The notes below the pieces were generated by a model. That model did not search any database and was not told the origin of the DNA. It saw only the letters and a program-made list of their open reading frames with translations. The position numbers and the translations under genes are program-made. Shown piece by piece: positions 3,436 through 27,000 of a DNA stretch of 64,000 nucleotides. Location of the stretch: NCBI GenBank assembly GCA_014904845.1, contig MU119320.1:99105-163104 (forward strand), given 5' to 3'. This DNA is from Acephala macrosclerotiorum (taxonomy: Eukaryota > Ascomycota > Leotiomycetes > Helotiales > Mollisiaceae). Numbering within the stretch: the stretch's first letter is position 1; every line of letters starts with the position of its first letter.

Positions 3436-6400
3436 TCAAAGCCCCTCATCCATCGGATCGCCGAAACCATCCTGCGCACCCGATCCTCCGTCCTCCTGCG
3501 GCTCATCATCGTAGTCAGCCTCAATGCTGATGATGTTGTCATCCGCATCAGTCTTGAGGAATCCGAATAGGTTTGCCAGTTGCTTGAGACTCAAGTTCGG
3601 TTGCTCGCGGTTGAATTCACCATCGCTTATAGCCTATACATCAGTCAGTTCATGATCCATCTCAGTGTCAAAACAAGCTAGGGAGAATAGAATGGGTTAC
3701 AAACCTTCTCCAGATTCCGCAACTTATGAAGCTGCATAGTCATCATTCTCATGTCAACCGTATTACGAACAACCAGCCTAGTCATATACGTCTCCTTCTC
3801 CTGCCCAATGCGAAAGATTCGACCAAATGCTTGCTGCTCAACTGCATGATTCCACCAAAGATCAAGGGAGAAGCATCGATTGGCCCAGGGGAAATTGAGT
3901 CTATACACATTCACATTAGTCAGAAAACTGGACACACGAACTGTGATTTCCGCCCCGAAAATATCGGAAATCAATCATGAGCAATGCCGCCGTGTGATGT
4001 CCAGAGCGGGGCGGCATATGTGAACGCGGAAAATGTCGAAATCATGAAAGGAGTCCGAAAGAATAGAGAAATGTGCGTACCCGAGACCTCCACATTTCAA
4101 ACCAGCAATCAAGATTTTAATTTCCGAATCGTCACGGAACTTTCGGATGGCCATAGTGCGATGTTCCAATGTCGAATCTCCGGTCAGGTATAGAAAGCCC
4201 CAGCCCTCGGAGTCGCAGATTCGGCCGATGATACGAGCGAGGGTGCGGAATTGGACGTAGATTACTACCTACATGATGTGAGCATTGAAGCTGAGGATTT
4301 GGGGACTTGATAGGATTTCGTTTGGAATTGTGAATTGTCGGTTCTGGATTTGGGACATTTCCGGCGTAAAAGTACGGAATCGAGTCCCGACTTTCCAGAA
4401 TTTCCCGCACAAATTGAAAAAATGCGTACCTTGTCAAGGGGAGCTTCCACGAAGTTCCGCAGTAGAATGCTCTTCAATGCAGTGGTCTTGCTGCTTGGAG
4501 TCAAGGAGAACTCAGGGTCCCAATCAGACTTGGTAACCCAGGTGCTGTCGGTGGTAATAGGCTCGAATCCGAGTGCATCGCGGCCCTTGGAGTACTTGGA
4601 TGTTGCCTGCTTGCCCTTCTTACTGCCGGAGACATTGCTGGAGTGAACGGAGTGGCGCTCATAGTCGTCGTCTTCGGAAATGCCAAGCTGACCGCGTCGA
4701 ACGTGCTCTGTGCCTGTGAAGACTCGGTCACAGGAAGGGCAAGTCACATACTAGAGCTCTGGTCAGTCCGAATGTCTCAGAGATACCGGGGTGATGGGAA
4801 AGGGTAGTCTTGGGCTCACCTTATCGCCAGTACTGATGATGGTGGTCATATGGCCAGAGATACATTCCTCGCAGAAGATGTGACCACACTGCAAGTCCAG
4901 GGGTCAGTAGGACATTCAAAAGCTTTACAAAGGGAGGGTTAGCTCACGTCAGTTCTGACAGCAGCCATTGGCATATCAGCACAGATGCCACAAACCACAC
5001 GACGGAAGAGCTGCTCCTCGCTTAGGCTGCCCACGGCTCCATTGAAGTTGAAGTTGTGGCCGTATTCACCTCTACCAAATGGAAGCATCTCCTCGCCTTC
5101 TTCACTGCTGAAGTTATGAGGGGTCTTCGACTTGTCGGCTTGCTCAACCCACTGCGAGAGTGTCAGTTCTGAATGTCCCACAGAGGTTTGGTTGATTCAA
5201 AGAGGCGGTTCCGGGCCAGGAATGGGATACGTACTGCCTTGCATTGCTCATAGAAAGGTCTAGTATCGCCCTTGAGCCTAGCCAACTTCCTCTGAAGCTC
5301 TTGAACATCCTCCAAAGTCCAGGACTCCTTGATGGTACGCTCAAGCATGAATGGATGACCGGTGCATTGGCGCAGACGGAGAAGTTGAACCATAAAAACG
5401 CCATAGTTTCGGCGAGCTGAGCCCTTGGCGAAGAAGGTATTGAGGTTGGATCGGAAACGGTTTTCAGTCTGCCAGAAAGTCAGTTTCTCGTTGTCCCAGA
5501 GATATCGGGGACATTCAAAATCCCAGAATGGAGGCCTGAATGAAAGGATTCAACACTCACGATACGGTAAATGATTTGCTCCTCTGGAGAGAATTGGACG
5601 TAGATGACTTCGGGGTGCGGCTTCGGCAGGGTAATGATAGGGCGGTTGAGAATCGTAGTCTTCATTGTCCGACGCATCATGGTATATGAGAGGAGGGTAG
5701 AGATACGACTGTAGGAGTCCTCGGCGTTGACATCGCAGAAGTATTTCTGGAAAACGGCCCAATCCATGGTGAAGTTGGCCTTCAGGAATCGGAGGTAGGG
5801 GAAGAGCCTGTTTTGAATGTCCCGTCAGCTGTGAGCGCTTTGAAAGGGCGCCATGAAAGGGATCAGGAGAACCATAGAGACAGCAAATCCGACGGACCAG
5901 AATGCTATCCTGAATGTCCCACGCTTCCCAGAACATCCGAAAAGTAGAGGAAGGGAAAACTTACTCTTCAAGACGATTCAACAACGGCGTACCAGTAAGA
6001 CACCATCTGTAAACAGACTTCAAGTTCTGACAAGCCAGACTAGTTCTCGCCGAATTGTTCTTGATAGCCTGTGCCTCATCAAGCACAACTCTGTACCATT
6101 GAATACGGTGGAGATCACCCATGTCCTTCTTGGCCATCTCCCACCACTTCTCATACCCACCTTGCTGGATCTTCACTCGACCCTCGTTGTCGGGGTATGG
6201 GAATTGCTTCATGACCTCATTGTAAGAAGTAACGACGATATGGCAGTCGGCAAGAACCTCTTGGGGGAGCTTGGCAGATGTCTTGTAGTGGATGACCTTG
6301 GGGAAGATGTGTTGGTGGGTATGATGGCGGATTTCGTCGATCCATTGGTCAATGACCCCAGCTGGAACAACAATTAGGGTGGCCTTCGTACCGCGCTTGA

Positions 6401-10308: not shown

Positions 10309-10392
10309 TTAACCCGCGGTCGTGACTGGGTTGCCGTTGGAGTCCGTTTGAGGGTAGTACCAAGCGCAAACAGCGATGATCGATTTGTCGGG
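10309..10392 (-). pseudogene. Stray terminal exon of a CAX-type Ca2+/H+ exchanger
   Basis: Read on the minus strand this encodes IIAVCAWYYPQTDSNGNP and a few more residues before TAA. It matches the last exon of the exchanger at 22142-22211 (IIAICAYYYPQTDSNGNA then stop). Homology runs about 15 nt into the preceding intron, but the splice acceptor has been lost (CAG replaced by ATC) and no upstream exchanger exon is present. It is a detached gene end in the same orientation as the intact gene 12 kb away. Most differences are synonymous or conservative, so it may come from a diverged paralogue or be a decayed copy. Confidence 0.7.
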
Positions 10393-10765: not shown

Positions 10766-11102
10766 AGCGACGGTGCTGAATCACTCCACCTTTCCCAAGA
10801 GCGGCTATATACCTACCTGATCGGGTTCAAGTACAAGCGTGGCTGCCGTTTTGGGTGAAGAGACGCGACTACTCTCACTCACTCTTCATAAAGCAGCAGC
10901 TCCTCCCAACAACCTTCCCCAAACTCCAACCTCCAACCTTCAACCTTCTCCCTCCACCAGCCAGCAAAGGCTCGCCAGGGCCATGAATGCACTCGTCGCC
11001 CACTAAGGTAACGTCAAACTGCATTGGTGGCATCAGTAAGTCAAACACGCCTTCCTCTCTAAATCGGCAGCGTCGATTCTAACGGTATCAGCCAGCAGCA
11101 GC

Positions 11103-13748
11103 ATGGCGGACTTGGGCGACAACTTCAACTCGTCGGATATCGAGTTCGAGCCGACCGTGGTCAAGGGCAAACGACAACGCGGTCGACAGAGTATCCAAGA
11201 GATCATCGAGCATGCAGACGAAGACCGCATCTCTTCCAAGAAGGCTATCAAGTCGTTGGAGTTTGGTCACGGAGCTCCAGGCACGATTGACAACTCCCAG
11301 CTCTGGGTGCAACGCTTCAACGTTTTCCGTCAAGTCACGCTCAAGAAATCCATCGACCTTCCGTTCACCGGCGACGACGTCCTCCGCTTCCTCGATACGG
11401 CTATCGGCAGGCTGAGGCCACACTCCAGAGACAAGCCCGTCCCGAGCAGTGAATACATCGTGGGCGGCTTCAAACACATCTCCTCGTACGGCACATTCAC
11501 CTACAAGGAAGCATCGGGGTACAAGCTCACGGTGAACGATGCGGCGAGACTTCAAACCTGGCTCGACGATGCAATCAAAGCCGGTCGGCTCACCAAAGGC
11601 AGGTGGAAGAAGAAGGTGTGGCTGAACTTTACAATCGTGTCACGCATGACCCGAGCATGGCTGAATCACCACTACCGATTCGGAGCACGCAACTGGGATC
11701 TGGTCATCGCGGGACTTCTTTCCATCGTGCTCATCACCGCCGTGGGGATGCGCGTTGGAGACGTCACTCGATCCTCGGGTTATGATGGTATCCAGTACGT
11801 CAAGTACAAAGACATCAACTTGAGAGTGACCGGAGAAGCCAAGCTGGCCAACGTCAAAGCTCGCATCACCTTGTCGTACATGAAGGGGATGAAAGATACC
11901 TTGAACATGGACGGCGTCTTCTACTTTCGTCCTATGGAAGAGAATACCAACGAGGACCACATGTGTGTCATCTCCGTGCTCCTCATACATGCTCTTCGGC
12001 ACGGCTTGGTCCATGGTTCGACGCTGTCCGAAGTGCTCGAGAACGCAATCGCAGCTCCCGATTCGTGCGTAGTTTGGACATTCCCGGATCGACCAGTCCT
12101 CACAGCGGTCCTCGCAAACAAGACGAGACGCGTGGATCTGGAGCAACCGGCACGCCCAGACCAGGTGTTGAGGGTTATCAAGCACATGGGACTCATCAGC
12201 AACATTCTCTCGCCCGTGCGCTTACACGCTCTGCGGTATGGCAACGCTCAAGACGTGGCCCATCTCCCTCGAGACCAGACGGCCGGATTTGTTGATGGTA
12301 CCGTCCGACAGACCATGTCCCACGCCCCGGTGACCCTGATGAATGGCACAACAGAGATGTACACGGGAGTCCACACTCGCGAAACCTACAACGACCGTGC
12401 TGCTGCCCAATATACGCATCCCTGGGGAGCAAAGTTCAGCGAGGAGTCTGCATTGGACGTTGTCAAAGCTCCTGTAAGCGAGGACGAGATAGCAGAGTGG
12501 CAGCGCCTCAATGAACCCGACGCAACCGATCATACCACCCAGAAGGCGAGAGCTCGTGCTCGAGAAGCGATTCGAGCTGAACGTCATCGACACTTCATCG
12601 ACACGGCTGCTCCGGAAAGGAAGAGCACTGCCAAGAAGGGAGCGCTGTCAGAGAAGTCAAGCAATATCAAGGCTGCCCCTGGCCCTTCAACTAAGAAGTC
12701 GAGCTCATCCCGAGAATCGGCAGCCCCGATTCATCCCCCCGTCGACCTTGCCACCGTGGAGGAGACAAGGCCATCACGAAGTCTGGAAGTCGCTAATATT
12801 GATCCACGACTTCTTGAAGAGGATGACTTGGACAGCGTCCAGGTAGATGCTACGCAATTGGAGAAATTGCAGTCTCAAGTGCTGCTGTTTGGTACAGCCG
12901 CTGAGCAGGGAGAAGCAGACAATGATGACGATATCATAGGCCTTCAAGCACTGCTGCCGCCTGACGTGGATGATGCTCCTGATGGTCATCACCATCTACA
13001 GGCGGACACCGACTTCATCACCCAGTTCTCCAGGATCAACATTGTCAACTGTACACGTTTTGCCGACCAGTGGCCGAAATATGAGAACGGGGCTGCGTAT
13101 GAGCAGAGCATTGGTCAGTACTCGGTCAGCGGAAACTCACGCGACTCGCCTACACCAATGAATTTTCAGTGTCAAGCAACAGCGCAATGCACTTATGTGT
13201 CCATCCAAAAGAAAGCCGTTGTCGCCCACGAAGCTATATGTTCTCCGGAGTACGTTGCTCGAGAGCTCTACCGTAAGGAGCACGGAGAGAAATTTCGCTG
13301 TGCGCAGTGTGAGGATACTTTCCTTACCCAACATCTGCTCAACATGCATGTCAAGAATGTACACGACTTCTCGCCCATTCCGTGTCCGGAGGGTTGTGAA
13401 CCAGCACATATCTATTCGTCCCAGGCAAATCTAAACGCCCACCTACGCAGAGAACACAGTGGAATATGGCCAGCCCGTTGCTTGTATCCCGGATGTACCG
13501 ATGAGACTCTGTTCAAGTCATCCTCTTATTCGAATCACTTGACCAAGGCACACGACTTGAAGACGAGGGCAGATCGGGCCCCCTTCTTTCCACCAACCCC
13601 CAAGAGGACTTGGCAGCCGACGACCTGTGATGTTGATGGTTGCACCAACTCTCACGAATTCGCCGCTGAGAGCTCTTTGGTCAAGCACTTGGTCGGAAAA
13701 CATGAGTTCGACAGGGCTGCTGCGAAGAAAGCATCAGAACGTGGTTAG
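11103..13748 (+). CDS. Tyrosine recombinase with C-terminal C2H2 zinc fingers
   Basis: 881 residues, no intron. A complete tyrosine-recombinase catalytic set is visible. Arg is in GMRVGD (about 217). His and Arg are in the box LHALRYG (H375, R378). A second His is in MSHAP (407), and the Tyr nucleophile is in TEMYTG (420), 13 residues later as in the family. The N-terminal 50-200 region would be the core-binding domain. A disordered linker (about 490-660) follows. From residue 690 there are four good C2H2 fingers and one degenerate one (FRCAQC...H...H, CPEGC, CLYPGC, CDVDGC). The architecture recalls fungal Crypton or DUF3435-type recombinases, but I cannot place it in either. The coding frame continues past the TAG stop for 48 codons (see separate entry). 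Three copies of the AATCGG/CCGATT palindrome lie in the gene. It heads the island at 11-22 kb. Confidence 0.8.
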   Translation: MADLGDNFNSSDIEFEPTVVKGKRQRGRQSIQEIIEHADEDRISSKKAIKSLEFGHGAPGTIDNSQLWVQRFNVFRQVTLKKSIDLPFTGDDVLRFLDTAIGRLRPHSRDKPVPSSEYIVGGFKHISSYGTFTYKEASGYKLTVNDAARLQTWLDDAIKAGRLTKGRWKKKVWLNFTIVSRMTRAWLNHHYRFGARNWDLVIAGLLSIVLITAVGMRVGDVTRSSGYDGIQYVKYKDINLRVTGEAKLANVKARITLSYMKGMKDTLNMDGVFYFRPMEENTNEDHMCVISVLLIHALRHGLVHGSTLSEVLENAIAAPDSCVVWTFPDRPVLTAVLANKTRRVDLEQPARPDQVLRVIKHMGLISNILSPVRLHALRYGNAQDVAHLPRDQTAGFVDGTVRQTMSHAPVTLMNGTTEMYTGVHTRETYNDRAAAQYTHPWGAKFSEESALDVVKAPVSEDEIAEWQRLNEPDATDHTTQKARARAREAIRAERHRHFIDTAAPERKSTAKKGALSEKSSNIKAAPGPSTKKSSSSRESAAPIHPPVDLATVEETRPSRSLEVANIDPRLLEEDDLDSVQVDATQLEKLQSQVLLFGTAAEQGEADNDDDIIGLQALLPPDVDDAPDGHHHLQADTDFITQFSRINIVNCTRFADQWPKYENGAAYEQSIGQYSVSGNSRDSPTPMNFQCQATAQCTYVSIQKKAVVAHEAICSPEYVARELYRKEHGEKFRCAQCEDTFLTQHLLNMHVKNVHDFSPIPCPEGCEPAHIYSSQANLNAHLRREHSGIWPARCLYPGCTDETLFKSSSYSNHLTKAHDLKTRADRAPFFPPTPKRTWQPTTCDVDGCTNSHEFAAESSLVKHLVGKHEFDRAAAKKASERG
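11664..11682. repeat. Palindrome family, imperfect copy
   Basis: GAATCACCACTACCGATTC in the recombinase coding region. The left arm has two mismatches and the right arm is perfect. On its own it could be chance. Confidence 0.35.
12046..12064. repeat. Palindrome family, imperfect copy
   Basis: CAATCGCAGCTCCCGATTC in recombinase coding sequence; two mismatches in the left arm. It is in the reading phase that encodes AIAAPDS. Confidence 0.4.
12714..12732. repeat. Palindrome family, perfect copy
   Basis: GAATCGGCAGCCCCGATTC: two perfect 7-bp arms around 5 bp, inside the disordered linker of the recombinase. Confidence 0.8.
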
Positions 13749-13895
13749 AGTTCGCAGATGTCCGTTGAAACATCGGAGAGGCATCTCACAAGAAAGTACC
13801 GCCCCAAGCCATGGGCCATTGGAAAAGTCGAGGAGGATACGAGCGCAGAAGACGATGAGGCTGCAGCGCCGACTCGAAAAAGACGCAGAGCATGA
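13749..13895 (+). other. In-frame continuation after the recombinase stop codon
   Basis: Beyond the TAG at 13746-13748 the same frame stays open for 48 codons to TGA at 13893-13895. It encodes a charged tail beginning SSQMSVETSERHLTRKYRPK and ending in APTRKRRRA, a plausible nuclear localisation signal. Either the stop is a recent nonsense change that trimmed the tail, or it is read through or spliced out (a 14-nt gap is too short for an intron). The tail looks like protein rather than random sequence. Confidence 0.45.
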
Positions 13896-13989
13896 TTGTT
13901 ACAAATCAACGCTGTCGATTTAATGGGCAACTAGAAGTGTGCTTCCTTCGGTTTTGAACGGCGTCCGTGTCGGCGACGAGATGCGGTCT

Positions 13990-14008
13990 GAATCGGGAGA
14001 CCCGTTTT
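13990..14008. repeat. Palindrome family, imperfect copy
   Basis: GAATCGGGAGACCCGTTTT in intergenic DNA downstream of the recombinase; the right arm differs by one or two bases. Confidence 0.5.
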
Positions 14009-14406
14009 GCTCGAGAGGATGGCTAGAAGTATGGTTACCGGAAGATATTCTTTTGAAGGGTTATTGCTACTGGCGGACTTGTGGGATGATACAAGTGGAT
14101 GGAGATGATTTGCCTCACCGTTACATCATTATTGCAAGAAGATTAATCCGCTCTTCAATTCTAGCATGAGATATCAATCTAAACTAAGAAAACGTTCAAT
14201 TCTTTCCAAAGTACTTGATCATCGATGTACCACATTGACTTGTAGATCCCACAGTAATACCTTTTAGATCATTTTATTCTCGAGCGCAGCGAGATCGAGA
14301 ATTTGAAGACTTGCTCTCATAAAATCAAGAAAAGAAGAAAGAAAAAGATAGAAAAACTCTGCATTGCATTATTATTCGCACTTAGCTATCTATGGTTTTC
14401 GGCAAT

Positions 14407-14425
14407 CAATCAGTAGTACCGATTC
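14407..14425. repeat. Palindrome family, imperfect copy
   Basis: CAATCAGTAGTACCGATTC in the 3' flank of the 493-residue gene; two left-arm mismatches. Confidence 0.5.
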
Positions 14426-14488
14426 TGGTCCCTTTTCCCATCGCAACCTAACCGCCGATCCATGCATACATGCCTTCCCTATGCACCA

Positions 14489-15970
14489 CTAGCTGCTCTC
14501 GGAGGATCTAGACGAACCAAAACCTGTCTTCTCCAACGTCTCAACCACTTCCGCAAGCATATCGCTCAATCCACGTTGCTTGTACTTGAATGCTGCTACC
14601 ATATACCGAGCTGCCTCCATCCACGACAGCTTAGCCGCATCCGTGTCCAACGCATTCGCATACTTCTCCCACACATCCTGCAAGGTGCCAGTCATGGTCT
14701 GGTCGCCACAGCTGTCCAGCAGTCCCTTGTCAAATTTCTGTGCAGCTTGCAGCATGTTCTTTAAGGTCATCGTAATGGCGGGGAGCAGCAGCGCCTGGTC
14801 ATCGGCGGTGATAATCGGTGCTGCGGATTCGCACGTGCCCACGATGCGCTGGACTGACCCGAGCACATCCGCAACCACATTCGTGCTCACATCCGACAAG
14901 TTGTCAAAAGCTCTGAGGCGGTAGCATGCTTCAAAGAGGAAGGGGCGCAGCAGTCGGTACTCGAGCGTGACATCCTGAGTCATCAGCTGCCTCTTCAGGA
15001 ATGCCAAATCGGCTGCGTCGATTTCCTTCAAGTCGGGCCATAGCGCACGGACCTCTTCAAGCATCAGTGCTGCATCTCCTCCCTCGGTAGTACTGTCTCC
15101 GTCCTCGAACTCCTCCTCATTGTCCACGAACTTCCTCATGGCCGTGTTTGAGGCGATAGGCATGAAAAGCAGATCTTGATCCGCTTGCTCCAGGATGCTG
15201 CTGATCTCCTGAAGATGCCACATGTCACTCGACTCTGCGAAGCACTCGACGTGGGTGCAGATGCTGTTCTGCAAAGAGACCGCCGGTTCAAGCACAACCT
15301 TGCTTGTATTTCTGGCTTTCTTGTACGCCATCTGCTTCTTGGACAAGACACGATCGGACGGCCGGAGAGCTTGCTTCGCAACAAGGGCGTTCCATGCTGG
15401 TCCTCGCTCCTTCAAAACCGTGCTGCCATCTCGGAACTTGGGAAGGTAGAAGCAGTTCTGCTGACCAATGTGGTGTGGAGTGCATAGGCCACGCTTGGGA
15501 CGAAGCAGAACGAAGAGGTCGACCTTCGGCTGCTCTGTCTCTTGGACTTGTGTCACGACCATGAGTGGGAGGTCCTTGCATTTGACGATGCCGTCGTCGT
15601 TCACGTCGATGCCAGCAGGCTTCTGCTTGAACTGGAGGGGATGCTTCTTGCCATATTGACTTTCAAAGTCGCGAGTAGCGAAGCCAATCAATAAATATCG
15701 TTGAACTCCTGCTTCTGCATTGGGATCGGACTCTCTTGGGGTCAAGGCAAGTGATTCTCGCCATGGATCCTCCCCTTTCTTCTTCATAGTAGTAACAGCC
15801 TTGTCCCAAGGGCCGGCGGGCTCGTATGCGTTAATGATGATTGCCTCATGCGCAACATCGATTTCGTCGCTGGGGATCTTCAGGGCCCAGCCAAAGACAT
15901 TGAATGCATATTCTTCGTTCTGCTTGGCTGGTGCCGATTGATTCTTCGCTGCTGCTCTCGTTGCTCGCAT
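14489..15970 (-). CDS. Uncharacterised 493-residue island protein
   Basis: Single open frame starting MRATRAAAKNQSAPAKQ (basic N terminus) and ending in a serine-rich tail. I do not recognise a family. What can be seen: a mixed alpha/beta N-terminal half; a central stretch with Cys/His (CTHVECFAESSDMWH, about residue 240); an acidic linker (FVDNEEEFEDGDSTTEGGD, about 285-305); and a helical C-terminal half rich in Leu and Ala. There is no signal peptide or membrane segment. It is divergent from the SNF2-type gene at 16373 with about 400 bp between the two starts, so they may share a promoter. The palindromes at 14812 and 15006 lie inside its coding sequence. Confidence 0.75.
   Translation of the reverse strand: MRATRAAAKNQSAPAKQNEEYAFNVFGWALKIPSDEIDVAHEAIIINAYEPAGPWDKAVTTMKKKGEDPWRESLALTPRESDPNAEAGVQRYLLIGFATRDFESQYGKKHPLQFKQKPAGIDVNDDGIVKCKDLPLMVVTQVQETEQPKVDLFVLLRPKRGLCTPHHIGQQNCFYLPKFRDGSTVLKERGPAWNALVAKQALRPSDRVLSKKQMAYKKARNTSKVVLEPAVSLQNSICTHVECFAESSDMWHLQEISSILEQADQDLLFMPIASNTAMRKFVDNEEEFEDGDSTTEGGDAALMLEEVRALWPDLKEIDAADLAFLKRQLMTQDVTLEYRLLRPFLFEACYRLRAFDNLSDVSTNVVADVLGSVQRIVGTCESAAPIITADDQALLLPAITMTLKNMLQAAQKFDKGLLDSCGDQTMTGTLQDVWEKYANALDTDAAKLSWMEAARYMVAAFKYKQRGLSDMLAEVVETLEKTGFGSSRSSESS
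14812..14830. repeat. Palindrome family, near-perfect copy
   Basis: TAATCGGTGCTGCGGATTC within the 493-residue coding gene; one substitution in each arm relative to consensus. Confidence 0.55.
15006..15024. repeat. Palindrome family, near-perfect copy
   Basis: AAATCGGCTGCGTCGATTT within the 493-residue gene. The six outer base pairs are perfect, with a single mismatch next to the loop. On the gene's strand it encodes EIDAADL. Confidence 0.7.
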
Positions 15971-16372
15971 GGTGAATGGTATGGATGGTCGAAGGTGAGA
16001 AAATCCCTAGGTCACATCAGCCATGAAATCGGAACCACCGATTTGAGTGCTCACTGTTGCTGTGATGGAGGTTTCTCTAGGTGCGCAGGTTCGTGAGATG
16101 CAGGAAGATCTGCGCACAGCAATGTAGGATGTCAGGCGCTTGCGAAGAGCAAGACTCAAGGGCGCAGAAGTGGTTGTTGTGTTGAAAAGACGAGGTGTAG
16201 AGAAAGAAAGAAGCCCAAGAAGGCAAGGCGATGTGAGGATATTCCTTAATCCGACCTTCACCTCCACCTTTAGCTCCACCTCGCTTATCACCTCTAGCCA
16301 AGTTCCTTCCTGACTCTCTGTTTTTCTCTTCCTTTTCTCCCACAACCTACAACCACCCTCCAATTATCAACC
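15971..16372. promoter_or_regulatory. Bidirectional promoter interval of two island genes
   Basis: About 400 bp between the start codons of the 493-residue gene and the SNF2-type gene. It contains a perfect palindrome at 16026-16044 and a pyrimidine-rich tract (16290-16370) just before the SNF2-type start, typical of fungal promoters. No clear TATA box. Confidence 0.5.
16026..16044. repeat. Palindrome family, perfect intergenic copy
   Basis: AAATCGGAACCACCGATTT: perfect 7-bp arms, 5-bp spacer, lying in the shared promoter interval about 55 bp upstream of the 493-residue gene's start. Confidence 0.85.
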
Positions 16373-18852
16373 ATGCCTACCACTACTCGGAACCAAAAGA
16401 AGCTCAAGGTCGAGACCGCAGAGCGAAGTGCAGCTGAGGAGACGGTTGAGAAGCTCAATGCGCTTAGTCTCACGCTCTCTTCTGTGCCTGAAGCCCTCAC
16501 CGAGCACCTGATCTCACCTTTAAAGCCTGGATATGGACTACTGGGAAACGAAGATGAGGAGGAAGAGTACTACGCTGCGTATATGAAGGGCCTTGAAGAT
16601 GAAGTAAGTGTTTATGTGTTCTTGGGACGTCAAGAATACTGACGGTATCGTTTAGGAAAAAGCTCGAGAGCAGACCGGAGCTGGAGCTCAAGGAATCGGT
16701 GGTGCCGATTCTAAAGACGCCGAAGAGGAAGATCAACAAGACGACGACGACGACGACGACGACTATAACGACGAGGAAGATGCTGAGCGGTCTTTTGAGG
16801 TCTACAAGCATCGAGAAAAGAAAAAGGCAGCGGAGTGGGAGGAGTCTTCTGATGAAGAGATTAACCTTGGTGATTACGAGAAATTGGAGTTCGGCAGAGA
16901 CTTCATCGAGGTAAATGGAGAACACATCCATGCAACCAAGTTCTTTGGCAACAAGTACACGGAACGTATCGTAAGTCTGCCATGTACCTTCTCTTCTTGC
17001 ACCTCAGGATATCGTGTGCTGACCTGTGCCTAGCGAGCTCTGTATGGAGTCAAAGCAATGGCGCATCCAGAGCACATGAATATCGTCCTTCACTATCACC
17101 AGTTGAAGGGTGCTGCACAATTAGACTTCCTGTGTCGTTCCTCCTTCAGAGGCGGCATTCTGGCAGATCAAATGGGTGTCGGAAAGACATTGACTGCGGT
17201 CACGTTAATGTTTATGGTGAAGGATGAGCCGGGATTTTCCATGGTTGTAGCTCCAAAGTCGTTGTGTCTGCAATGGGTCTCTGACATTGAAGGTGCATGG
17301 CAAGAGGTGAGTCTTCGCATTGTTTCAGAGATCGGTAATACCGATTAACGTTGTTTAGGGATATGGTATGAAAGCTTATCTGCTTGAGGGATCTTCTATC
17401 ACTGCCCACGAACTCCTGGCACTTGGTGTTGATGTTATCGTATGTTCCTACGATCAAGTTGAGGCTTCCGAACGTGCTCAGAGAAACCTGATCGATGGAA
17501 TCGACGCATACAACAACGATCAGACCGGTAGTACTCTTAAGCCAAAGCGCCCCATTGCCGCTTTGCATTCTTCGTTCTGGCTGGAGTTGAAACTCCCTAT
17601 CAAGCGTCTGATCCTCGATGAGGCTCAAGTTGTGAACAAGCGCAACGGCGTGCGTCACAAAGCCGTGAAGAGGCTCAATGCCAAAGCTGTAGTAGTATTG
17701 TCAGGTACTCTAGCACACAACAAATGGCATAATTTTTCCGGCCTCATCGACTTCCTCGCCGGCCATCCTTTCACCACCCACAAGCTGTTCATGCGAGCCT
17801 TCGCGACCCAGGACTATGACGGCAAAATCAGCAGACCCGATTTGCCCCGAATGCGACTCTTGCAACGCTTCATCCAGGCCTTTACTGTCGCACGTCCCTC
17901 CAGCATTCTAAAGCAGACAAACTGTATCCGATACCGGTCCTCCTTCGAGATTGAAGGAGCTGTCTTGAATAAAGTCAATGAGCTCTATGCCAAGTATGCA
18001 CAATTGGCGGCCATGGATAGGCCGGAGCCTGGTTTCGAGGACTCCAGCAAGGATAGCAAAGTCGGTCTGTCGTATGCTGTCCAGGGACAGGTCGTGTCGC
18101 TTCATCCAATGCTGATGGATGGCACCAAGCATGCTATTGCTGATGACTTCGTCGACATGGATGAGGAGGACCCTGTAGCTGGATATGTGGCTGCTGACGC
18201 CGAAACCAAGAGTGGGGAGGCAAGAGATGCGTGGCTGCAGAAGATCCGAGAGAGAAAGTTCTTGGTACACGAATCAAATCGGTTGCGCCATTTCCTACGA
18301 GTCTACAAACAGCTCCGCACAACCAATCCAGAACAAAAGATATTGGTCTTCTCTCAATACCTCAAGTTCTTAGACATCATCCACGAGGCTATGTCCAAGG
18401 TATTCAACATCCAATGTCTTCGTATCGACGGCACGGTCGGCTATCACCAGCGGGTCAAAGCATTACAGGACTTCAAGGATTCGGATCCTAGTGTGCCGCT
18501 GCTCATGACTGCAGGATGTGGTGCTTATGGTCTCAATGTCACTCAGGCATCTATCGTAATTCAGTGCGAGGTTTGGTGGAATCTGAGCGTGGAGCTGCAG
18601 TCCATTGCCCGCGCACATCGCCAGAAGCAAGAGAGCGATGTCCTTGCTGTCCAGCTCTTTGCATCGAACAGCCCAATTGACAAGGAGTTATTAGGCGTCC
18701 AACGTAGCAAAGCTTGCATCACATCAGAACTCATGGAGGCTATTTTCCGGCTACCAGATGAGGAGCCAGACATCCGGGAGTTGTGTTTCCCTCTGGAGCT
18801 TTCTCCCATGACCTTCGAAGAGTATGATAACCTGAAAGCTCGGGCTGCTTGA
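16373..18852 (+). CDS. Divergent SNF2-type ATPase of the island
   Basis: Four exons: 16373..16603, 16656..16970, 17034..17306, 17359..18852; about 770 residues. The N-terminal 180 residues are acidic and disordered with a run of eight Asp (GAC repeat near 16738). Helicase motifs in order: I DQMGVGKT, Ia VVAPKSLCLQW, II LDEAQ, III VLSGT, IV ILVFSQY, V GLNVTQ, VI QSIARAHRQKQ with both arginines kept. The class uses ATP to translocate on DNA and remodel protein-DNA complexes (family knowledge). Unlike the Rad5-type gene at 3.4 kb it has no RING. The spacing between the two lobes is compact. Palindrome copies lie in exon 2, intron 3 and exon 4. Head-to-head with the 493-residue gene. A role with the neighbouring recombinase is inference from position only. 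Confidence 0.85.
16693..16711. repeat. Palindrome family, perfect copy
   Basis: GAATCGGTGGTGCCGATTC in exon 2 of the SNF2-type gene, in the acidic disordered region; it encodes GIGGADS. Confidence 0.85.
17329..17347. repeat. Palindrome family, intronic copy
   Basis: AGATCGGTAATACCGATTA, with five inner base pairs perfect. It lies in intron 3 of the SNF2-type gene, 11 bp from the splice acceptor. Its right edge forms GATTAAC, a plausible branch site. Confidence 0.7.
17825..17843. repeat. Palindrome family, one-mismatch copy
   Basis: AAATCAGCAGACCCGATTT in exon 4 of the SNF2-type gene; one G-to-A difference in the left arm. Confidence 0.6.
18276..18293. repeat. Palindrome family, copy with 1-bp deletion
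   Basis: AAATCGGTTGCGCCATTT in exon 4 of the SNF2-type gene. The right arm lacks the G of CCGATTT. Chance is possible for this one. Confidence 0.4.
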
Positions 18853-19364
18853 GGGGCAAGTTGGGATTGGCGATTTGTAGATCCAGCACGCTGATGGTGG
18901 TCTATTAGCCAGCCGAGGGAGAAATCGGTAGAGGCGATTTGTAGAGTCTTCAATTCAAGGGACATTATTTCATTCTGCCAGCGTGGCATCAGGGCTGTGC
19001 TACTACAAGCACCATTAGTCAGAATAGATACTTTTCAGTCAGACACATATTATTCTTCCGTTGACTTTACACTACTACTTATTCCAGAAATTTATTCTCG
19101 TGAGATCTTAATACATCCTTGAAATCTCACAGAATAGAACACCACTCATTTGCAGATGCTGTTTGTATGCCATGCCAGTTCTATTAGTCTGCTACGAAGC
19201 TTAATGCTCCAGGTACCATGCTAAATTCCATAGTAAAGACCATATTGCACGGGGAATGCTGTAAACACCATGTCGAAGTCTGCTGACTGATCACCACCCA
19301 TCCTCAATCATTGTCTGACATTCAAAAGGCTGCAAACTCCCTTTCACAAGGTTCTTCCTGGTCC
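18853..19364. other. Intergenic, convergent 3' flanks
   Basis: Between the SNF2-type gene and the acidic 280-residue gene. It carries one good palindrome (18922-18940) and one decayed one (18858-18876) directly after the SNF2-type stop. The rest is unremarkable, with no gene seen. Confidence 0.5.
18922..18940. repeat. Palindrome family, near-perfect copy
   Basis: AAATCGGTAGAGGCGATTT in the 3' flank of the SNF2-type gene; six outer base pairs perfect. A decayed relative, AAGTTGGGATTGGCGATTT, lies at 18858-18876 and differs in the left arm only by transitions. Confidence 0.7.
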
Positions 19365-20323
19365 TTACTTGTCCTGCTCAACCTTCATGCCAGCCTTGAC
19401 TTTGTCAGCAGACGCAGTCTCTTGTCTCATGCGCTCATTCTTGAGTCTGGCAGAGCAAATTGCACACTCGCAAGGTCCCGAATCGATTTCCTCATCGTTC
19501 TCCTCATCGTTCTCCTCATCGTTCTCCTCATCGTTCTCCTCATCGTTCTCCCCATCGTTCTCCGAATCGGTTGCGTCGATTTCTGCAAGCTCCGCCTTCG
19601 TGAGTTGGCGTAGCTTCTTCCGGCCCTTCGCAGTTTCTCCATCCTCAATGTAGTTGCCATGCTTGCACTCAGTCATTGCCGATAGCTTCTTGCCAACCTT
19701 CTTGATTCCCTTCCAATCGTCCGAGAAGTCTAGTACACTCTGGTGCTTCAGTTCGCTGGCGTCTTTCTGGTGGTGAAGTTAGTGATGGATATTCTGAAGG
19801 ATAAGAGTTTTGACTTACGCCTCTCTTGAAAATAGAACTGAATCGGAGCTGGCGATTGAGGGTGTGACGTTCAAAGCGGGGGTCGGCTCTTGCACGCTCT
19901 TCGACGGCTTTGTCCATCTTCTCCTCGGCTTCCTTGCTCATCGCTGGTCCCCTAACTACTGTAATGTTTCCATCCAGGTCTTGAACTTCGTAGTCACCAG
20001 GATTAAGCTCCTCCTCGACTTCTTCAGCCTCATATGCAGCAGCATCTTCGTCTTCTTCTTCATCCTCATCATCTTCTTCAGCCTCATCTTCTTCTTCTTC
20101 TTCCGTAGAAGCATCGCCGCTTTCATCCAATTCGTCGAGCTCATCATCCAAAGCAACAGCGCCCTCAACGTCCTCTTCCTCCGAAGTTTCCTCTACTGCG
20201 GGGGAGGGGGCCCACTCAGCCTCGCCGGCCTCTAGCTCTTCCTTCTTGTTCTTTTTCAGTCACGCATCGTCAGTAAATCGGAACACCTGATTCGGGGCTC
20301 GATAGAGTACTCACATCACCCAT
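19365..20323 (-). CDS. Acidic 280-residue island protein with CxC..C motif
   Basis: Three exons: complement(19365..19766, 19819..20250, 20315..20323). The first exon encodes only MGD. The protein is extremely acidic over residues 10-75 (long Glu/Asp runs). A middle region carries LNPGDYEVQDLDGNITVV and SKEAEEKMDKAVEERARADP. The C-terminal part has HQSVLDFSDDWKGIKKVGKK, then an NDEE repeat of 12-nt units (about five), then CECAICSARLKNERM, a possible small metal-binding Cys cluster. No family recognised. Histone-chaperone-like acidity is suggestive only. Two palindrome copies lie in exons and one in the first intron. Head-to-head with the acidic gene at 20648. Confidence 0.7.
19490..19562. repeat. 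12-bp coding minisatellite (NDEE repeats)
   Basis: Five to six tandem copies of a CTCATCGTTCTC-type 12-mer inside the acidic 280-residue gene, giving Asn-Asp-Glu-Glu repeats. The unit is a multiple of three, so copy changes keep the frame. Confidence 0.9.
19564..19582. repeat. Palindrome family, near-perfect copy
   Basis: GAATCGGTTGCGTCGATTT right next to the 12-bp minisatellite in the acidic 280-residue gene; on the gene's strand it encodes EIDATDS. Its loop and right arm match the copy at 15006 except for one base. Confidence 0.65.
19840..19858. repeat. Palindrome family, imperfect copy
   Basis: GAATCGGAGCTGGCGATTG in exon 2 of the acidic 280-residue gene; five inner base pairs hold. Confidence 0.5.
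20275..20293. repeat. Palindrome family, intronic copy
   Basis: AAATCGGAACACCTGATTC in the first intron of the acidic 280-residue gene; the right arm has one C-to-T difference. Confidence 0.6.
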
Positions 20324-20647
20324 TTTGATTGTTTTTGCTGCTGAGATCGACGGTCCGCACGCGAAGTACGAAAGTTGAAGGTTGTGAATGGCAAGTTGAA
20401 GGTGGATATTGAGAAAGGTTTAAGAAGTTCGGTTGTGGGCGCGTTGACCCGTGGAGGTGACGCGTCGGCTCGTGGAGGTGAATTGGAAGCCAAAACAATT
20501 CACCGCAGCCTTACCCACGTATGATACCTCCCCCATTACACACGCCACGCTCAATTCACAAGAAATCTACTTTTTCCATTTCTAATCCCGATAACCTGTT
20601 CCGCCCTGCGCATCACCTCTAGAAAAGTTCTGGAAGAGCTCCCAAAC

Positions 20648-21445
20648 ATGTCAGAAAAGGAGGCTCCGATTTCCACGCCGTTCCTCTCTTGGGAGGGCTT
20701 GGAGGAGGAAGAGCTGGCTGATATGAAGAGTGCTATTCGAGATATCAAAAATATCAACGATGATATTACGAAGAAGCAAGAGATGAAGAAGAGCACCAAG
20801 ACCCAAAAAAAGAAGCTTGAGGACGAGGTTTCTAAGCTCCTCACTATCACGAGGGAGTGGGCCAGGCGTCCTCGACCTACAACACTGCAACAAGCGGCGC
20901 CCAGTGATCAAGACCGTATCCGATACCGAAGGTTTTATTCGCTTGTTCAAGAAGGCCTTCAGAACCCCATCAGAGCGCAGAGCCAAGACTTCATCGAGCA
21001 GCTTCGCCATCTATGTCGCTCTGCAGAGAAAACCGGAGCTACTGATTCTTTCGAGGTTGAGGAACTAGAATATGATGACAGCGAAGATGGAGAAGCTATG
21101 GAAGTCGATGATGAGAGAGCAAGGATTAGTCAAGCGTGTATGTTTGCGGAAGAGTATTTATCGTTAGTCATAGAGCTGATTAAGAGCATAGTACAAAGGG
21201 TCACATTCTCACCACCGCCACTCTTTCAAGATGTGGAGCCGGAGGAGGAAGAGGAAGCTGAAGAGCAGATGCAAGAGCTGTCCATCAGTGAGGATTCTGA
21301 AAACTTTCTCCAAGAGTACGAGGTAGAAGAAGATAAGGCGAGTAGATTTAAGGGCTCCGAGGACGACTTCGAAGAGAGCGCTGAGGAGGACGCTGAGGAG
21401 GATGCTGAGGAGGATGCTGAGGAGGATGCTGAGGAGGACTTCTAG
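20648..21445 (+). CDS. Acidic coiled-coil 265-residue island protein
   Basis: Single exon. The N-terminal half is predicted helical and probably coiled-coil (ADMKSAIRDIKNINDDITKK, then Lys/Glu-rich). A conserved-looking middle section follows (RIRYRRFYSLVQEGLQNP). The C-terminal half is dominated by Glu/Asp and ends with five AEED repeats. No family recognised, and no signal peptide or membrane segment. It shares its promoter region with the other acidic island gene (about 325 bp apart, divergent). Palindrome-like sequences at 20654 (weak) and 21030 (two differences) lie inside it. No intron and normal codon use suggest a real gene, but function is unknown. Confidence 0.65.
   Translation: MSEKEAPISTPFLSWEGLEEEELADMKSAIRDIKNINDDITKKQEMKKSTKTQKKKLEDEVSKLLTITREWARRPRPTTLQQAAPSDQDRIRYRRFYSLVQEGLQNPIRAQSQDFIEQLRHLCRSAEKTGATDSFEVEELEYDDSEDGEAMEVDDERARISQACMFAEEYLSLVIELIKSIVQRVTFSPPPLFQDVEPEEEEEAEEQMQELSISEDSENFLQEYEVEEDKASRFKGSEDDFEESAEEDAEEDAEEDAEEDAEEDF
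21030..21048. repeat. Palindrome family, imperfect copy
   Basis: AAACCGGAGCTACTGATTC in the acidic 265-residue gene. Both differences from consensus are transitions. Encodes KTGATDS. Confidence 0.5.
21381..21440. repeat. 12-bp coding minisatellite (AEED repeats)
   Basis: Five tandem GAGGAYGCTGAG units at the 3' end of the acidic 265-residue gene. The same unit length occurs in the neighbouring acidic gene, but the unit sequence is different. Confidence 0.9.
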
Positions 21446-21578
21446 AACAACCTTGAGGAGGTTCAGAGTCAGGGAGATGACAAAGGGAGGGCATGAGGCA
21501 CTGGTCCAGAGCTGCAAAAAGACATAGCAGGAAAGGGAGGATGAGATGCTAGGCTCATTAGAAACCGAGATCTCATTG

Positions 21579-21597
21579 AATTGGTACTGCCGATTTG
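21579..21597. repeat. Palindrome family, one-mismatch copy
   Basis: GAATTGGTACTGCCGATTT in intergenic DNA; one C-to-T difference in the left arm. Confidence 0.65.
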
Positions 21598-22007
21598 AAG
21601 GTTGGCGGGAGAGATGATGATTTCTTGTATTGCAAAGAGACACCGACCAGCCCACCTTGATACCAATCAAGAACATATTCCCTCTAGCATAATCACCCAT
21701 TTCATCCTCGAACAAGATTGCTTCGTGTGATTTAAGACTGTAAAAATCAAACCAAGTGAAGCACAGCTCCAATTGACAAATTTGGTGAGATGAAGCGAGG
21801 TAGGCAAAACTAGCACAACGCGCCTTCAACGCTGAGCAGCTGCACCTGCCTTGTCGTACTGCCCACCCGCACCTGCGCCAAGATAACCCAGATTTCTTCC
21901 TCCTTCTCTTCTTCTCTCTTCCAAAACCCAGCATACTCACTCGTCTTCCCCCCCCCCCCAGCACATCTAACATCCTGCCAGAACATTACCTGCATCACCG
22001 TGAGCGC

Positions 22008-22026
22008 GAATCGGTGCAGCCGATTC
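22008..22026. repeat. Palindrome family, perfect copy with extended arms
   Basis: GAATCGGTGCAGCCGATTC; the pairing extends one further base on each side (C and G), giving 8-bp perfect arms. It lies 116 bp beyond the stop codon of the CAX gene. Confidence 0.9.
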
Positions 22027-22141
22027 GTGAGGTCAGCATGGCCGACGACATAGTTTATCCAGAACAGTCAATTTACATTAAAATAAAATCCACTACAAAA
22101 CACAATATACGAAAAATCCAGCCTCCAAGTGCTACCCTCAA

Positions 22142-24025
22142 TCATCCTGCTGTCACCGCATTGCCGTTTGAGTCCGTTTGTGGGTAATAGTATGCGCAGA
22201 TAGCGATGATCCTGTTTTCGGGCGAAGGTTAATAATTCCCAATATCTAAAGGCGGATCAACTTACAGATACAAGCACTGCAACAACATTCCCTCAAGCCA
22301 ATGAGACTTGCCATCTCCAATTAGATAGTTGACAAGAAGAACAGCCACGAATAGAACCGCAACTTGGAATCCGTCAAAGCTCAATGTCATGTCTTCCTTG
22401 CCCATGATCCAACCAATGACGACTAAGAGCGGGATCAAGAACAGCGAAACCTGCATGCTAGAACCAACCGCAACGCCAATGGCTAAATCCATCTTGTCCT
22501 TACAAGCCACAGTAACAGCAGTAGCGTGCTCAGCGGCATTTCCAACAATCGGCAAGAGAATCAAACCTACGAATTCGACGGAGACTGTGCCGCTCTCGGT
22601 GATAGAGCCAATACCGTCGACCATGAACTCAGCGCAAAGTCCAATGATGGCGGTGGCACCAGCAAGAGTAGCCCAGGCGACAGCGATGTGCAGGGTGGGC
22701 TCCTCGGGCTCGTCCTCCTCGTCTTCGTAGGCGGCAGTATTGATCAACTCGTCATTTGGTGGTCGGTCTGCGAGTTGAGGTCGTCCAGCTCCTGCTCCAA
22801 TACCTCCAGCTTTCGCAAGACTCTTAGAGATGGCTCCTTCTGGCAGAGCATGCTTGCGGGGTCTCATCGGGACCTTTTGGCTCTCCTCGTTGAACATGTC
22901 GACGTGAGTGTGGAGCTGGAAGTACAGGTATCCAGCATAAACAACCAGGAGAATGACAGCGGTTCCGCGAGAAAGAGAAGCAACAGAAGACAAGGGCGTG
23001 GTGCTAAATTGATCGAAACAGGTGGGGATGATGATACTGCCAATGGCCAACGCGAGCAATGAGGCAGCTGTTTGGGCAACTGTCTGGTTGAAAAATTGCT
23101 CTGTTCGTCTGAGACCACCGAAGAAGAAACACATGCCCATGACGAGGAGAAGGTTGGACAAGATACTGCCAATAAGCGAGGTTTGGACAACGACGACTTC
23201 ATCCTTGGCCAGGGCAATGACAGCGACGATCAATTCGACGGCGTTACTGAAGTCTGTTAGTTGAGCCCGCAAAAGTCGTAAAGGTACCAACCCGAAAGAA
23301 GCATTGAGAAGACCACCCAAACTCTCTCCCAAATGCAGCGCAATTTCCTCAGTTGCAAAACTCAGCATGCCTGCAAGGGGAATGATGGCAATAAAATTGA
23401 CTGTAAAGACCACCTTCCCATTAACTTCAGCATAATTGAGGGCGATGCCAACAGGAGCTGCAAGCAACAGAATATTAACCCAGGAGCTGAAAATTGTCCG
23501 CTGAATCTGATTCCTCAGAGTAAAAGGTTCCTTGTGGTAGAGCTCCTTCCCCTTGTACCATGGTCGCTTCTTTGGCTTGTCCTCATCTTCTAGTGCCTCA
23601 TCCTTGTGGAAGGATTTGCCCCCGAATCTCCTACGAGCCTTCTCCTCTTGACTGTGTGGCCGACCGCGTCCTCCAACAACCGTCTCCTCACTGCCTACTT
23701 CTCTAGGTTTCGAAGTATTGGTCGCGGTCGCAGTAGTCATCTCGTACTCATTCTCCTTCGATCTCCTTCGTATCGTATCTCCGTCTGTCGTCGTGCTGAA
23801 ATTCCTCGAGTGTGGTGGTTCTGTTTGGACCACCGATAGTGGCGTCTCGTCCTCGGCGCCCAAAGCTCCAGCATCTCTTGATCTTATCCCATTGCTGGCT
23901 CCAGCTTCGAGGTCAGAGGATGCGGCCCACGTGGATGACCGCTTTCCTTTACCAAAGGGATTCCACGACTCGCCGTACCAGGCCTCTTTGCGCGCCTGAC
24001 GTTTGATCTGATCTAATCCGGCCAT
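22142..24025 (-). CDS. Vacuolar-type Ca2+/H+ exchanger (CAX/VCX1 family)
   Basis: Three exons: complement(22142..22211, 22266..23246, 23292..24025); about 594 residues. The family trades cytosolic Ca2+ for vacuolar protons. The signature c-1 region reads GGLLNASFG then NAVELIVAVIAL across the first intron. The c-2 region reads GNAAEHATAVTVACKDKMDLA. About eleven hydrophobic segments follow a 190-residue hydrophilic N terminus that could be autoregulatory. The central acidic loop is EDEEDEPEE. The 45-nt intron at 23247-23291 is a multiple of three and open, so it would be missed by a simple frame reading. The last exon encodes IIAICAYYYPQTDSNGNA and a few residues more; a homologue of just this exon is stranded at 10.3 kb. 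Confidence 0.9.
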
Positions 24026-27000
24026 TGTAAGCAAACGAGTATATGAAGGGAGCAGCAGTCAAAAAGATGCATTGCTGACTATGCGCGAGGAGAAAACTGA
24101 CGCATATTGAACTTAGAAGACATGGTGATGGATTGAATGAATCAATTCGACGGTGGTGCTATGGTGGTGCTGTGGAGGAAGCAGGGCGGAAGAATGGGTA
24201 CGAGTACGAGCACTGATGTGTTGCTAGCGGGATTAATTGGGCTTGGGAGTTGGGCCGTTCGGCGTGGAGGGATCGGGGATTGGCTGGCTGCTTCAGGAGG
24301 TAAGGTTAGTTGGTGCGGCCGATTCAGGCTGTGCAGTGCAGACGACGCTGATGCAGTCAGTGGTCGGGCGTCGAGGGGATTCTGAACACTTCGGTGTCAC
24401 AGAGTCATGTATCGTGTGCGAAAGGCTCGAGTCGTCGCGGTCTTATCAATCGATGTCGTGCGATGCGATGGGCGGGGAAAGGTACAGTACTGCCGGAGCG
24501 CTTCGTCTGAAGGTCTGTCTGCAGGCCCCGTTCGGCCTCGTTGGGGGCTGTGAAGTGCCTTCGTGGAGCCTCGTTCCTTCGTTCGTGGCTATTGCTACAG
24601 TATTGGGGGTTCGCAAGAATGCGGCGCCTTTCCTGTTTGGTTCGGTTCGGGTGGGGTCGGAGTCGAATCGTGATGGCAGATATGTGTTGCGGGTGTTGAT
24701 TTGGTTCTTGCGCAAATGTTTTGTTGTGAAAGAAAAAGAGAAGCTGGCAGGTGTTCTTTCTTGTAGGAGATTGGGGTGTTTCGATTCAATTTTACGGGCT
24801 GGACGCGGTCCCTCTTGGCTCTTGGCTCTTGGCTCTTGGCACTTCACTGCCACCCACTTGATGACCCCAGAACGCCACGAGCACGGGAAGAGCGCCGTGA
24901 GAGATAAGGCAGAATCCAGAATCGTCAACTCAACTCGATTTGCTGTGAAGTGAAGACGAGCGAGATTTGCCGACGGAGCCACAAGTATCACGTCCACGTT
25001 TTACGTCTGCCCCTACGTAGTCGCGATAGACAATCCAAGAACCACGCAGTGCGCCTAGAACGACGCCGACGATACTTATTCAAATGCGAGCGCTTCTCGG
25101 GACCGGATTAGATCAAATCCTTTCGACCGTCTGGGTCGGATGCGTTGCGGGTGAGCGTTGATGACTGCGGCTGGCGGAATACTTGCTTGATAAGGTCTAA
25201 ACGGGGCTTTTTCTCAACGACGTACAGAATGCCAGAATAAGGTTGGGGATTACGACAATCAGTTCACTAGACTCTACCCTCTGAGTCTAGCCCGCACATG
25301 AATCACGATGTATAGTTGGGCATTCACCGCTGCGATTCACGCTACAAACGCTGCCAGTCACGATCTCCAAAAACGCAGCATGACGGCGAGCCACCTTTCT
25401 CGAAACCTCGCAAACAAGAAAAGGGACTCACTTGGCTCCTTGGCAACAAACTCTTCTTTCCGATGACAGCACCGTCAAGCTCATCCAAGCTCAGCTTCGA
25501 TTCAGGTACCGTCTTGTCACTCTTGGTCCGGCAATTGAGTGCAAGATTCTGGATGATCTCATGATTCTCACCTCGTGGTTTTCCAGCAAGGGCCGTCGTA
25601 AACGTCAAGCCACATACGAACAACGCATCATTGCGCAGCGATGATCACCTGCTTGGAAACAACGATTGCAATTCAACCAATCATCGAGCATGTTTGCAGA
25701 CATTGCATATGTTCTTCGTAACGAATTGGAATGGAGGAATTAGGGTTCTTCTGAAAAGGCGTATAACCGGCGTATTGATTTCAGGTCCTGAGATGTGGCT
25801 GAGACCCCAGAATCTTGAAACAGGATTTGTTTCAACCCGTGGCAAGGATCTGGAATCATCACGTGTGGTGGGACACGTGTGGGGGTTTGATAATTTCCTC
25901 CTTTCTGTTTGAAACGACTTTTGGGAATCAAAAAATCTCATGGTGTGAAGAGCGTGATGGCGCTGTGCAAGTGCATGGTTAAGGTCTATGTTGGAGGAGG
26001 TGCGAAGCTATTGTTTTCGAGTGTCCCCGTTGTCCTGATGGCTTCATGCTTTGAAAGTTTCGGATATTGCTTTCAAAAGTATATCTCGAGCGTCTTTTCC
26101 TCAGGATTGAAAATCCTTCCTCTAGCGATGTCTAGCTTGAATGACAGATCAATCGTTGCAATTCAAGCAACACATTACGAACAGGGCTGTGCATTCTCCG
26201 CCCCTCAGAATTTACAGCTTTCTCTGCAAGGTCCTGGATCCAATTCACTGCGCTCAATGACGCAGCTCCAATTTCGGGTCTTTCCTCATTCCGAGAAACC
26301 AGGCCCGAGAACGCAGTGCTCTTCCGAGTCTCAAGTCAGCACTGCATCTCGTGTTACGATGGTACTCGCACCGCAGGACGACCTCGGCGGATGACTGCAT
26401 ACTAGTAAGATACAGACGTACATCGTTTCAGCCCCGATATCCGTTTTCGTGATGGCGTTCGGGTGGTTTTGGGGTGTTGATGAGAAGCTCCTGAAAGATA
26501 GAAATTTGTTTGGATTTTGAGCATCGTGGACGGGAGTCGATGCATCCCAAAGAGTATTAGGAGATGATTAATTAAAGCGCTGCCAATATCCCCATGATGT
26601 TTGCTCCGCTGATTCCACTCTGCAAAATTGCATTACACAAGATATTGATCAGAAAAGTAGTCGTTTCTCTTCCGTTTCACGTGCTAGTCATGCTGTTTCT
26701 CTCCATTGTCTCTGCAAGAAATACAAGGAATTTGTTTCTATATGTTGAGTCTTCCGATTTAGAAACTTTGATTTCTCGACAGAATTTCTCACCTATCTCT
26801 ATGTCGGGAAGCAATGCGAGGTTCTTCCTACGTCGGGAGGTAACTATTCGAAGCCATTCGAGAATCGAGCACAGTCCCAACACGCGATTGCTTGTTATAG
26901 TTCTTAGGTACTTTCCTTGCAAGTCACTATGATTGATGCTATTCTTGACTTTTTGTGTGCAAGACTCTTAGGCAGGCTAGGCACGGTCGAGCTTGCCTAC

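Follow-up and report, generated by a model that had tools for sequence, protein, structure and literature searches.

An evenly spaced array of 19-bp palindromes threaded through the genes of a putative mobile element in Acephala macrosclerotiorum

Why should a 19-bp palindrome recur throughout one group of neighboring fungal genes, inside their coding sequences as well as between them? The stretch of DNA analyzed here (hereafter the window) covers 64 kb of a 163,104-base contig, in a genome totaling 69.66 Mb, and includes a very AT-rich segment at 54001-56000 (24% GC). With the site defined as RAATCGG-N5-CCGATTY and scored by its number of mismatches, 21 sites with at most two mismatches are found at 11061-22026, a gene island, and none in the rest of the window; with at most one mismatch, there are 12 in the island and again none in the rest of the window. 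The same half-sites separated by spacers of 0-4 or 6-15 bases give 0-2 matches in the island (at most two mismatches). When three mismatches are allowed, matches in the window rise to 32, whereas 100 shuffles gave 10.5 on average and 21 at most. The four perfect copies listed in the original prediction (12714, 16026, 16693 and 22008) were all recovered.

The limits of the array were examined with a weight matrix, each of the 21 sites being left out of its own matrix when scored. These sites score from 12.7 to 25.6, and the matrix yielded a 22nd site at 13903 (score 16.7; three mismatches). The next hits in the window, at 32139 (10.5) and 24307 (9.7), score below the weakest site and look like noise. 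The array thus extends over 11061-22026 and not over 11664-24325 as first proposed, and the match at 32139, which had been considered fair, belongs with this noise. Within these limits, the 21 sites have a mean spacing of 547 bp with a CV of 0.44, compared with 0.93 by chance (P = 5e-5), and inclusion of the 22nd site gives a mean of 521 bp and a CV of 0.47; for 21 and 22 sites alike, equal evenness was reached by a fraction of 5e-5 among 20,000 random placements. The consensus, about RAATCGGHDSHDCCGATTY, is palindromic. The spacer, whose bases were ignored when sites were selected, is itself conserved, its central base being G or C in 20 of the 21 sites and the position next to the center never being C (0 of 42 strand readings); 20 of the 21 sites conform to the refined spacer rule. 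Such conservation is more readily explained by a symmetric protein site than by a peptide or a hairpin. Collectively, these data confirm that the palindrome array of the island is real and stronger than first described.

Ten of the 22 sites are located in the coding sequences (CDS) of four island genes (Table 1), where they are spread over all three reading frames (2, 3 and 5 sites). The claim that all five genes carry coding sites holds for these four, while for the fifth, sites lie in or beside the gene. A recoding control was performed on the four genes, leaving out the presumably spliced acidic gene on the minus strand, with a matrix derived from 10 sites, none of them in the four CDS under test, and 300 synonymous recodings which preserve the proteins. 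At a score of at least 12, 10 CDS hits were observed, whereas the recoded sequences averaged 1.95 and never exceeded 6. The corresponding figures are 10 against 3.43 (maximum 8) at a score of at least 10, and 11 against 6.05 at a score of at least 8, a count reached in 4 of the 300 recodings. Ten coding sites where about two survive synonymous recoding argue for selection on DNA, and the constraint on these sites goes beyond the amino acid sequence. Sites also occur in an intron, in 3' regions and in leaders, and hence beyond the placement of Zn2Cys6-type promoter sites. Because about half of the sites are coding and their spacing is even, an ordinary Zn2Cys6 promoter site is unlikely, as had been suspected from the outset.

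Table 1. Palindromic sites, island genes and exchanger exons, with their positions in the window.
Feature	Position	Strand	Location or product	Remark
Site AAATCGGCAGCGTCGATTC	11061..11079		5' leader of recombinase-like gene	Mismatch scan and matrix
Site	11663..11681		Recombinase-like CDS	
Site	12046..12064		Recombinase-like CDS	
Perfect site	12714..12732		Variable linker of recombinase-like CDS	Peptide ESAAPI
Site	13903..13921		3' of recombinase-like gene	3 mismatches, matrix 16.7
Site	13990..14008		Intergenic	
Site	14407..14425		3' of orphan gene (P493)	
Site	14812..14830		Orphan P493 CDS	Peptide ESAAPI
Site	15006..15024		Orphan P493 CDS	Peptide IDAADL
Perfect site	16026..16044		5' leader of orphan P493 gene	
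Perfect site	16693..16711		Acidic N-terminal part of SNF2 gene	Peptide GIGGADS
Site	17329..17347		SNF2 intron 3	
Site	17825..17843		SNF2 CDS	
Site	18276..18294		SNF2 CDS	
Site	18922..18940		3' of SNF2 gene	
Site	19564..19582		Acidic gene (-)	Frame IDATDS
Site	19840..19858		Acidic gene (-)	Close to presumed exon edge
Site	20275..20293		Near start of acidic gene (-)	Presumed intron
Site	20654..20672		Acidic gene (+)	Codon 3
Site	21030..21048		Acidic gene (+) CDS	
Site	21578..21596		3' of acidic gene (+)	
Perfect site	22008..22026		Right end of array	11 bp before ATG at 22038
Recombinase-like gene	11103..13748	+	881 aa, C-terminal C2H2 fingers	
Orphan P493 gene	14489..15970	-	Conserved, 493 aa	
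SNF2 gene	16373..18852	+	SNF2-family ATPase, 770 aa, 4 exons	Exon structure deduced from sequence
Acidic gene (-)	19365..20322	-	Acidic protein	Approximate, presumed spliced
Acidic gene (+)	20648..21445	+	Acidic protein, 265 aa	
Terminal exon R	22142..22211	-	Ca2+ exchanger gene, IIAICAYYYPQTDSNGNAVTAG*	Contiguous with gene body
Terminal exon L	10309..10381	-	Diverged second version, IIAVCAWYYPQTDSNGNPVTTAG*	Far side of island

The nature of the island proteins bears on which of them might bind these sites. In an alignment of 12 recombinase-like members, R217, R378 and Y420 are invariant and H375 and H407 occur in at least 90%; we tentatively assign these five residues to the R...HxxR...H...Y set of tyrosine recombinases. 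The structure model of this protein (pLDDT 54.6) is too poor to confirm a tyrosine recombinase fold, and its matches at E <= 0.001 are the zinc fingers of CTCF; the C2H2 array resembles GLI and ZIC fingers. DUF3435 gave weak matches in 3 of the 12 aligned members (best E 0.003), none in the window protein at E <= 0.1 and, among 10 relatives scanned in detail, one in P0006 alone, at 15.6 bits for a cut-off of 25.8. No family or fold could be assigned convincingly to P493, whose model (mean pLDDT 67.9) yielded no PDB fold match at E <= 0.001. The island SNF2 protein is 100% identical to an Acephala macrosclerotiorum protein over 91% of the query; SNF2-like matches are also present outside the array, on the minus strand at 3723-6695. 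Just past the last site, a short reading frame (22038-22190) which begins with MADD is perhaps a truncated sixth gene. Searches returned 22 recombinase-like relatives, the window's own excluded, and 15 relatives of P493, and 12 island-type SNF2 relatives (P0041-P0052) were taken above a drop in score; none was found in the viral contigs scanned. In Chlorociboria, the SNF2 and P493 relatives have adjacent locus numbers (g8124 and g8125), and the recombinase relative (g2950) is on a different contig. Recombinase-like, P493 and SNF2 relatives each occur on a contig of 13,578 bases.

Recurrence of the sites in these homologues was assessed at the protein level, through the peptides that a site would encode, among relatives which are not independent of each other. 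In the 15 P493 relatives, a gap of 5 gives 15 site peptides for 0.9 expected, and other gaps at most 3; in the 12 island-type SNF2 relatives, it gives 8 for 0.8 expected, and other gaps at most 2, compared with 4 for 9.0 expected in 70 other SNF2 proteins. The 22 recombinase relatives show no overall enrichment (5 for 2.6 expected at gap 5), spacers 1 and 3 giving 5 and 6 site peptides. Over all 49 relatives, the AATCGG half-site gives 12 for 1.0 expected, and 1 of 25 scrambled half-sites, AGAGCT, is also clearly above expectation (12 against 2.1).

Several site peptides of the relatives fall inside conserved protein blocks. Peptides compatible with site 14812 are present in 6 of the 15 P493 homologues (P0026, P0028-P0031 and P0038) and with site 15006 in seven (P0025-P0029, P0031 and P0038). 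At the linker site 12714, P0004, P0006 and P0007 have ESTPPI, ESIPPI and ESALPI, respectively, and P0002, P0003 and P0005 have site-breaking forms. At site 16693, the 50%-identical Chlorociboria SNF2 protein P0041 reads EIGSVDS. The leader site 16026 is non-coding in the window, with stops in all three frames ahead of the ATG; it would read IGGSDF in one frame, and counterparts in P0026 (IGGPDY) and P0029 (IGGSDS) lie 36-51 bases before the presumed starts, in predicted leaders. Site peptides are absent from 7 of the 15 P493 relatives (P0032-P0037 and P0039) and 5 of the 12 SNF2 relatives (P0043, which is 67% identical, and P0049-P0052). This pattern is partial evidence that individual sites have counterparts at equivalent places in certain homologues of 50-63% identity.

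The explanation that we favor, and to which we give an even chance, is that the sites form an element-wide operator array bound by a putative symmetric dimer encoded by the island. The island would be an element, probably mobile, that has integrated into the genome of a helotialean fungus, and the 19-bp palindrome the binding site of a sequence-specific protein acting as a symmetric dimer. The binder would most likely be island-encoded, either the recombinase/C2H2 protein or the orphan P493. With about 22 sites, one per ~520 bp across genes, leaders and introns, such a protein may cover the element from end to end and determine the state of its chromatin or transcription, possibly in concert with the island SNF2 ATPase. 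An array of this kind would explain the concentration of the sites, their symmetry, their even spacing and their indifference to coding status. We lean toward a role in protecting the element from silencing rather than in silencing it, since the open reading frames of the element are still long and its base composition is gene-like.

The rest of the genome sets limits on how private this site may be. Exact copies of AATCGG-N5-CCGATT number 10 genome-wide (about 4 expected from base counts), of which four are in the island, and 4 of the 5 exact copies of RAATCGG-N5-CCGATTY are in the island. With at most two mismatches, N5 gives 710 matches compared with 607 for N4 and 503 for N6, indicating a sizeable background, so that the motif is not absent elsewhere. 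When the pattern is refined to AATCGRNDSHNYCGATT, 19 exact matches are found in the genome: seven in the island, two on contig C240, two on contig C7 and eight elsewhere, the last group occurring one per contig, four of them with the A/T form on both arms. The C240 cluster (L032 4529-7406) comprises five variant sites in 2.9 kb, two of which fit the refined spacer. A ribosomal protein gene lies on either side of it, the frames that it surrounds have no Pfam match, and it includes three copies of a companion palindrome, GATCAAC-N3-GTTGAT, among seven places genome-wide. The C7 cluster (L030 4338-5582) has two good and two weaker sites in 1.2 kb, all four fitting the refined spacer, in the neighborhood of an HSP70 gene and of a short frame for a C2H2 zinc finger, with two site copies inside a 44-bp tandem repeat. 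In the 10 kb around C240 and C7, no relative of the recombinase-like, P493, SNF2 or 265-aa acidic proteins was detected, nor of the acidic protein (-), sought as a fragment only. In addition, C259 has a single site and C212 one site plus two 2-mismatch matches.

Two other loci were considered. On C107 (L031 3466-6135), a Prp8 intein, which carries a homing endonuclease domain, has two variant sites within 0.95 kb. It was rejected as a probable coincidence of acidic peptides, as both sites, inspected by eye, can be translated in one frame as I-D-x-S-D-[F/S] and the refined spacer is matched by neither, a dismissal made after the fact and using a spacer rule that 3 of the 5 C240 sites also fail. 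Contig C8 carries a degenerate relative of the recombinase-like gene (about L023 9523-7751), in which no site occurs at two mismatches or fewer, and a helicase hit near it reads as a DEAD-box-type frame (by eye).

Being without detected island genes, the C240 and C7 clusters weigh most heavily against a site that is strictly private. The proposal of a site private to an island protein fits the concentration in the island, the symmetry, the conserved spacer, the constraint at the DNA level and the partial recurrence in homologues, with the recombinase/zinc-finger protein as a candidate binder; against it stand these small clusters. They would be accounted for, as would the genome-wide excess of N5 over N4 and N6, if a host-encoded factor bound the sites, for example silencing or insulating the island, with C240 and C7 as other targets. 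We regard such a factor as rather unlikely, since a mobile element should lose harmful sites, yet some look retained in homologues, and since nearly all perfect genome copies of the full motif sit in one island.

The borders of the island bear on its mobility and on a possible role of the sites in recombination. The array is flanked by two 62-bp repeats (10331-10392 and 22161-22222) which are 80.6% identical. Considered as terminal repeats of the element, they proved upon translation to be exchanger exons. The adjacent gene belongs to the Na/Ca-exchanger family (gene-body reading frame 24034-22266), exon R being joined to its body via a GTAAGT donor and a CAG acceptor, as read from the sequence. 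Third codon positions account for 12 of the 16 base differences between exons L and R (P = 8e-4), so that each seems to have diverged while coding for protein. Genome-wide, the pattern of their shared core is exact only at L and R, occurring once with one mismatch (C277) and four times with two; a repeat between exon L and the island is also present on C325 and C1. These exons suggest that the element integrated at the 3' end of the exchanger gene, bringing a replacement exon, although a truncated tandem copy of the exchanger gene is a possible origin instead.

Recombinase core sites consist of inverted arms around a short spacer, which the palindromes resemble, and with a recombinase-like gene in the island, the sites could be core or accessory recombination sites for excision, integration or copy-number control. 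We consider this improbable: 22 equivalent sites in genes would invite internal deletions and inversions, and neither copy of the exchanger exon is among the window's best 45 matrix hits. A function as RNA hairpins is very improbable, even if many sites fall within presumed transcripts and a perfect copy could provide a 7-bp stem and a 5-nt loop (as judged from the sequence), since 1) sites 15006 and 19564, in which position 7 differs between arms, would leave an unpaired A-C in the presumed sense strand, 2) C240 has both forms at position 7 and 3) the loop center is conserved as G/C. Least probable of all are scattered copies of a tiny transposable sequence, as units of ~40-44 bp shared by some C240 and C7 copies (partly by eye) might suggest, or chance with shared acidic peptides, as the C107 intein pair appears to be, for the island sites occur in all three reading frames, far exceed the shuffled and recoded controls and share no flanking similarity, the flanking columns carrying almost no information (0.02-0.20 bits), which leaves the tiny dispersed element first envisaged unsupported in the island.

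Returning to the operator array bound by an island-encoded dimer, a broader scenario can be proposed tentatively, in which a eukaryotic mobile element inserts at the 3' end of a protein gene and repairs it with a terminal exon of its own, and in which an evenly spaced, self-encoded operator array within its coding sequences allows a single protein to govern chromatin across the element. If true, this would be a fungal mobile element which regulates itself through a code superimposed at the DNA level on its genes. The array would also mark the extent of the element and offer a cheap way to find relatives. Considered along with the duplication of the terminal exon, it would make gene-restoring integration in a eukaryote open to testing.

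Such integration is known from bacteria. Integration of the e14 type in icd of E. coli results in two versions of the 3' end of the gene, one of which restores the frame. The island likewise lies next to a gene whose 3' end exists in two versions; unlike e14, it involves a eukaryotic terminal exon, and its integration is putative. Among fungal elements, Starships with a DUF3435 captain are similar, in the extracts available, in that a recombinase-like protein is present in a fungal island (PMC12134995), from which our locus, with exon-like repeats at its ends, differs by its size of ~12 kb and by a recombinase-like protein that has a C-terminal C2H2 array and no DUF3435 match at E <= 0.1. In titles and abstract openings of the Starship literature, no dispersed site array came up; those on fungi at large, mainly titles and abstract openings and thus weak evidence of absence, describe no array of this kind, and no title retrieved for the AATCGG/CCGATT bases was relevant.

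The closest parallels are functional. In VANC-like anti-silencing, silencing marks are removed by an element-encoded protein once it is bound to the motif. According to the excerpts consulted, VANC proteins bind a motif repeated across Arabidopsis VANDAL transposons and act on the whole element, the VANC21 motif being YAGTATTAY, found outside coding sequence and often tandemly repeated (PMC5735166). As with VANC targets so described, a short motif is repeated over one element, the element-encoded binder being putative here; unlike them, the island sites are 19-bp palindromes, evenly spaced and dispersed, nearly half of them within CDS. In Cluster A mycobacteriophages, the same kind of partial source reports stoperators, repressor sites which occur in large numbers along an integrated element, mostly off promoters, and are asymmetric and mostly oriented with transcription (PMC6550527). 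The island resembles this arrangement in having many sites spread through an integrated-looking element and differs in that its sites are palindromic and in a fungus. On these accounts, VANC targets and stoperators are functional parallels and not families which include the island array. The array would be comparable to both, yet palindromic, evenly spaced and partly coding.
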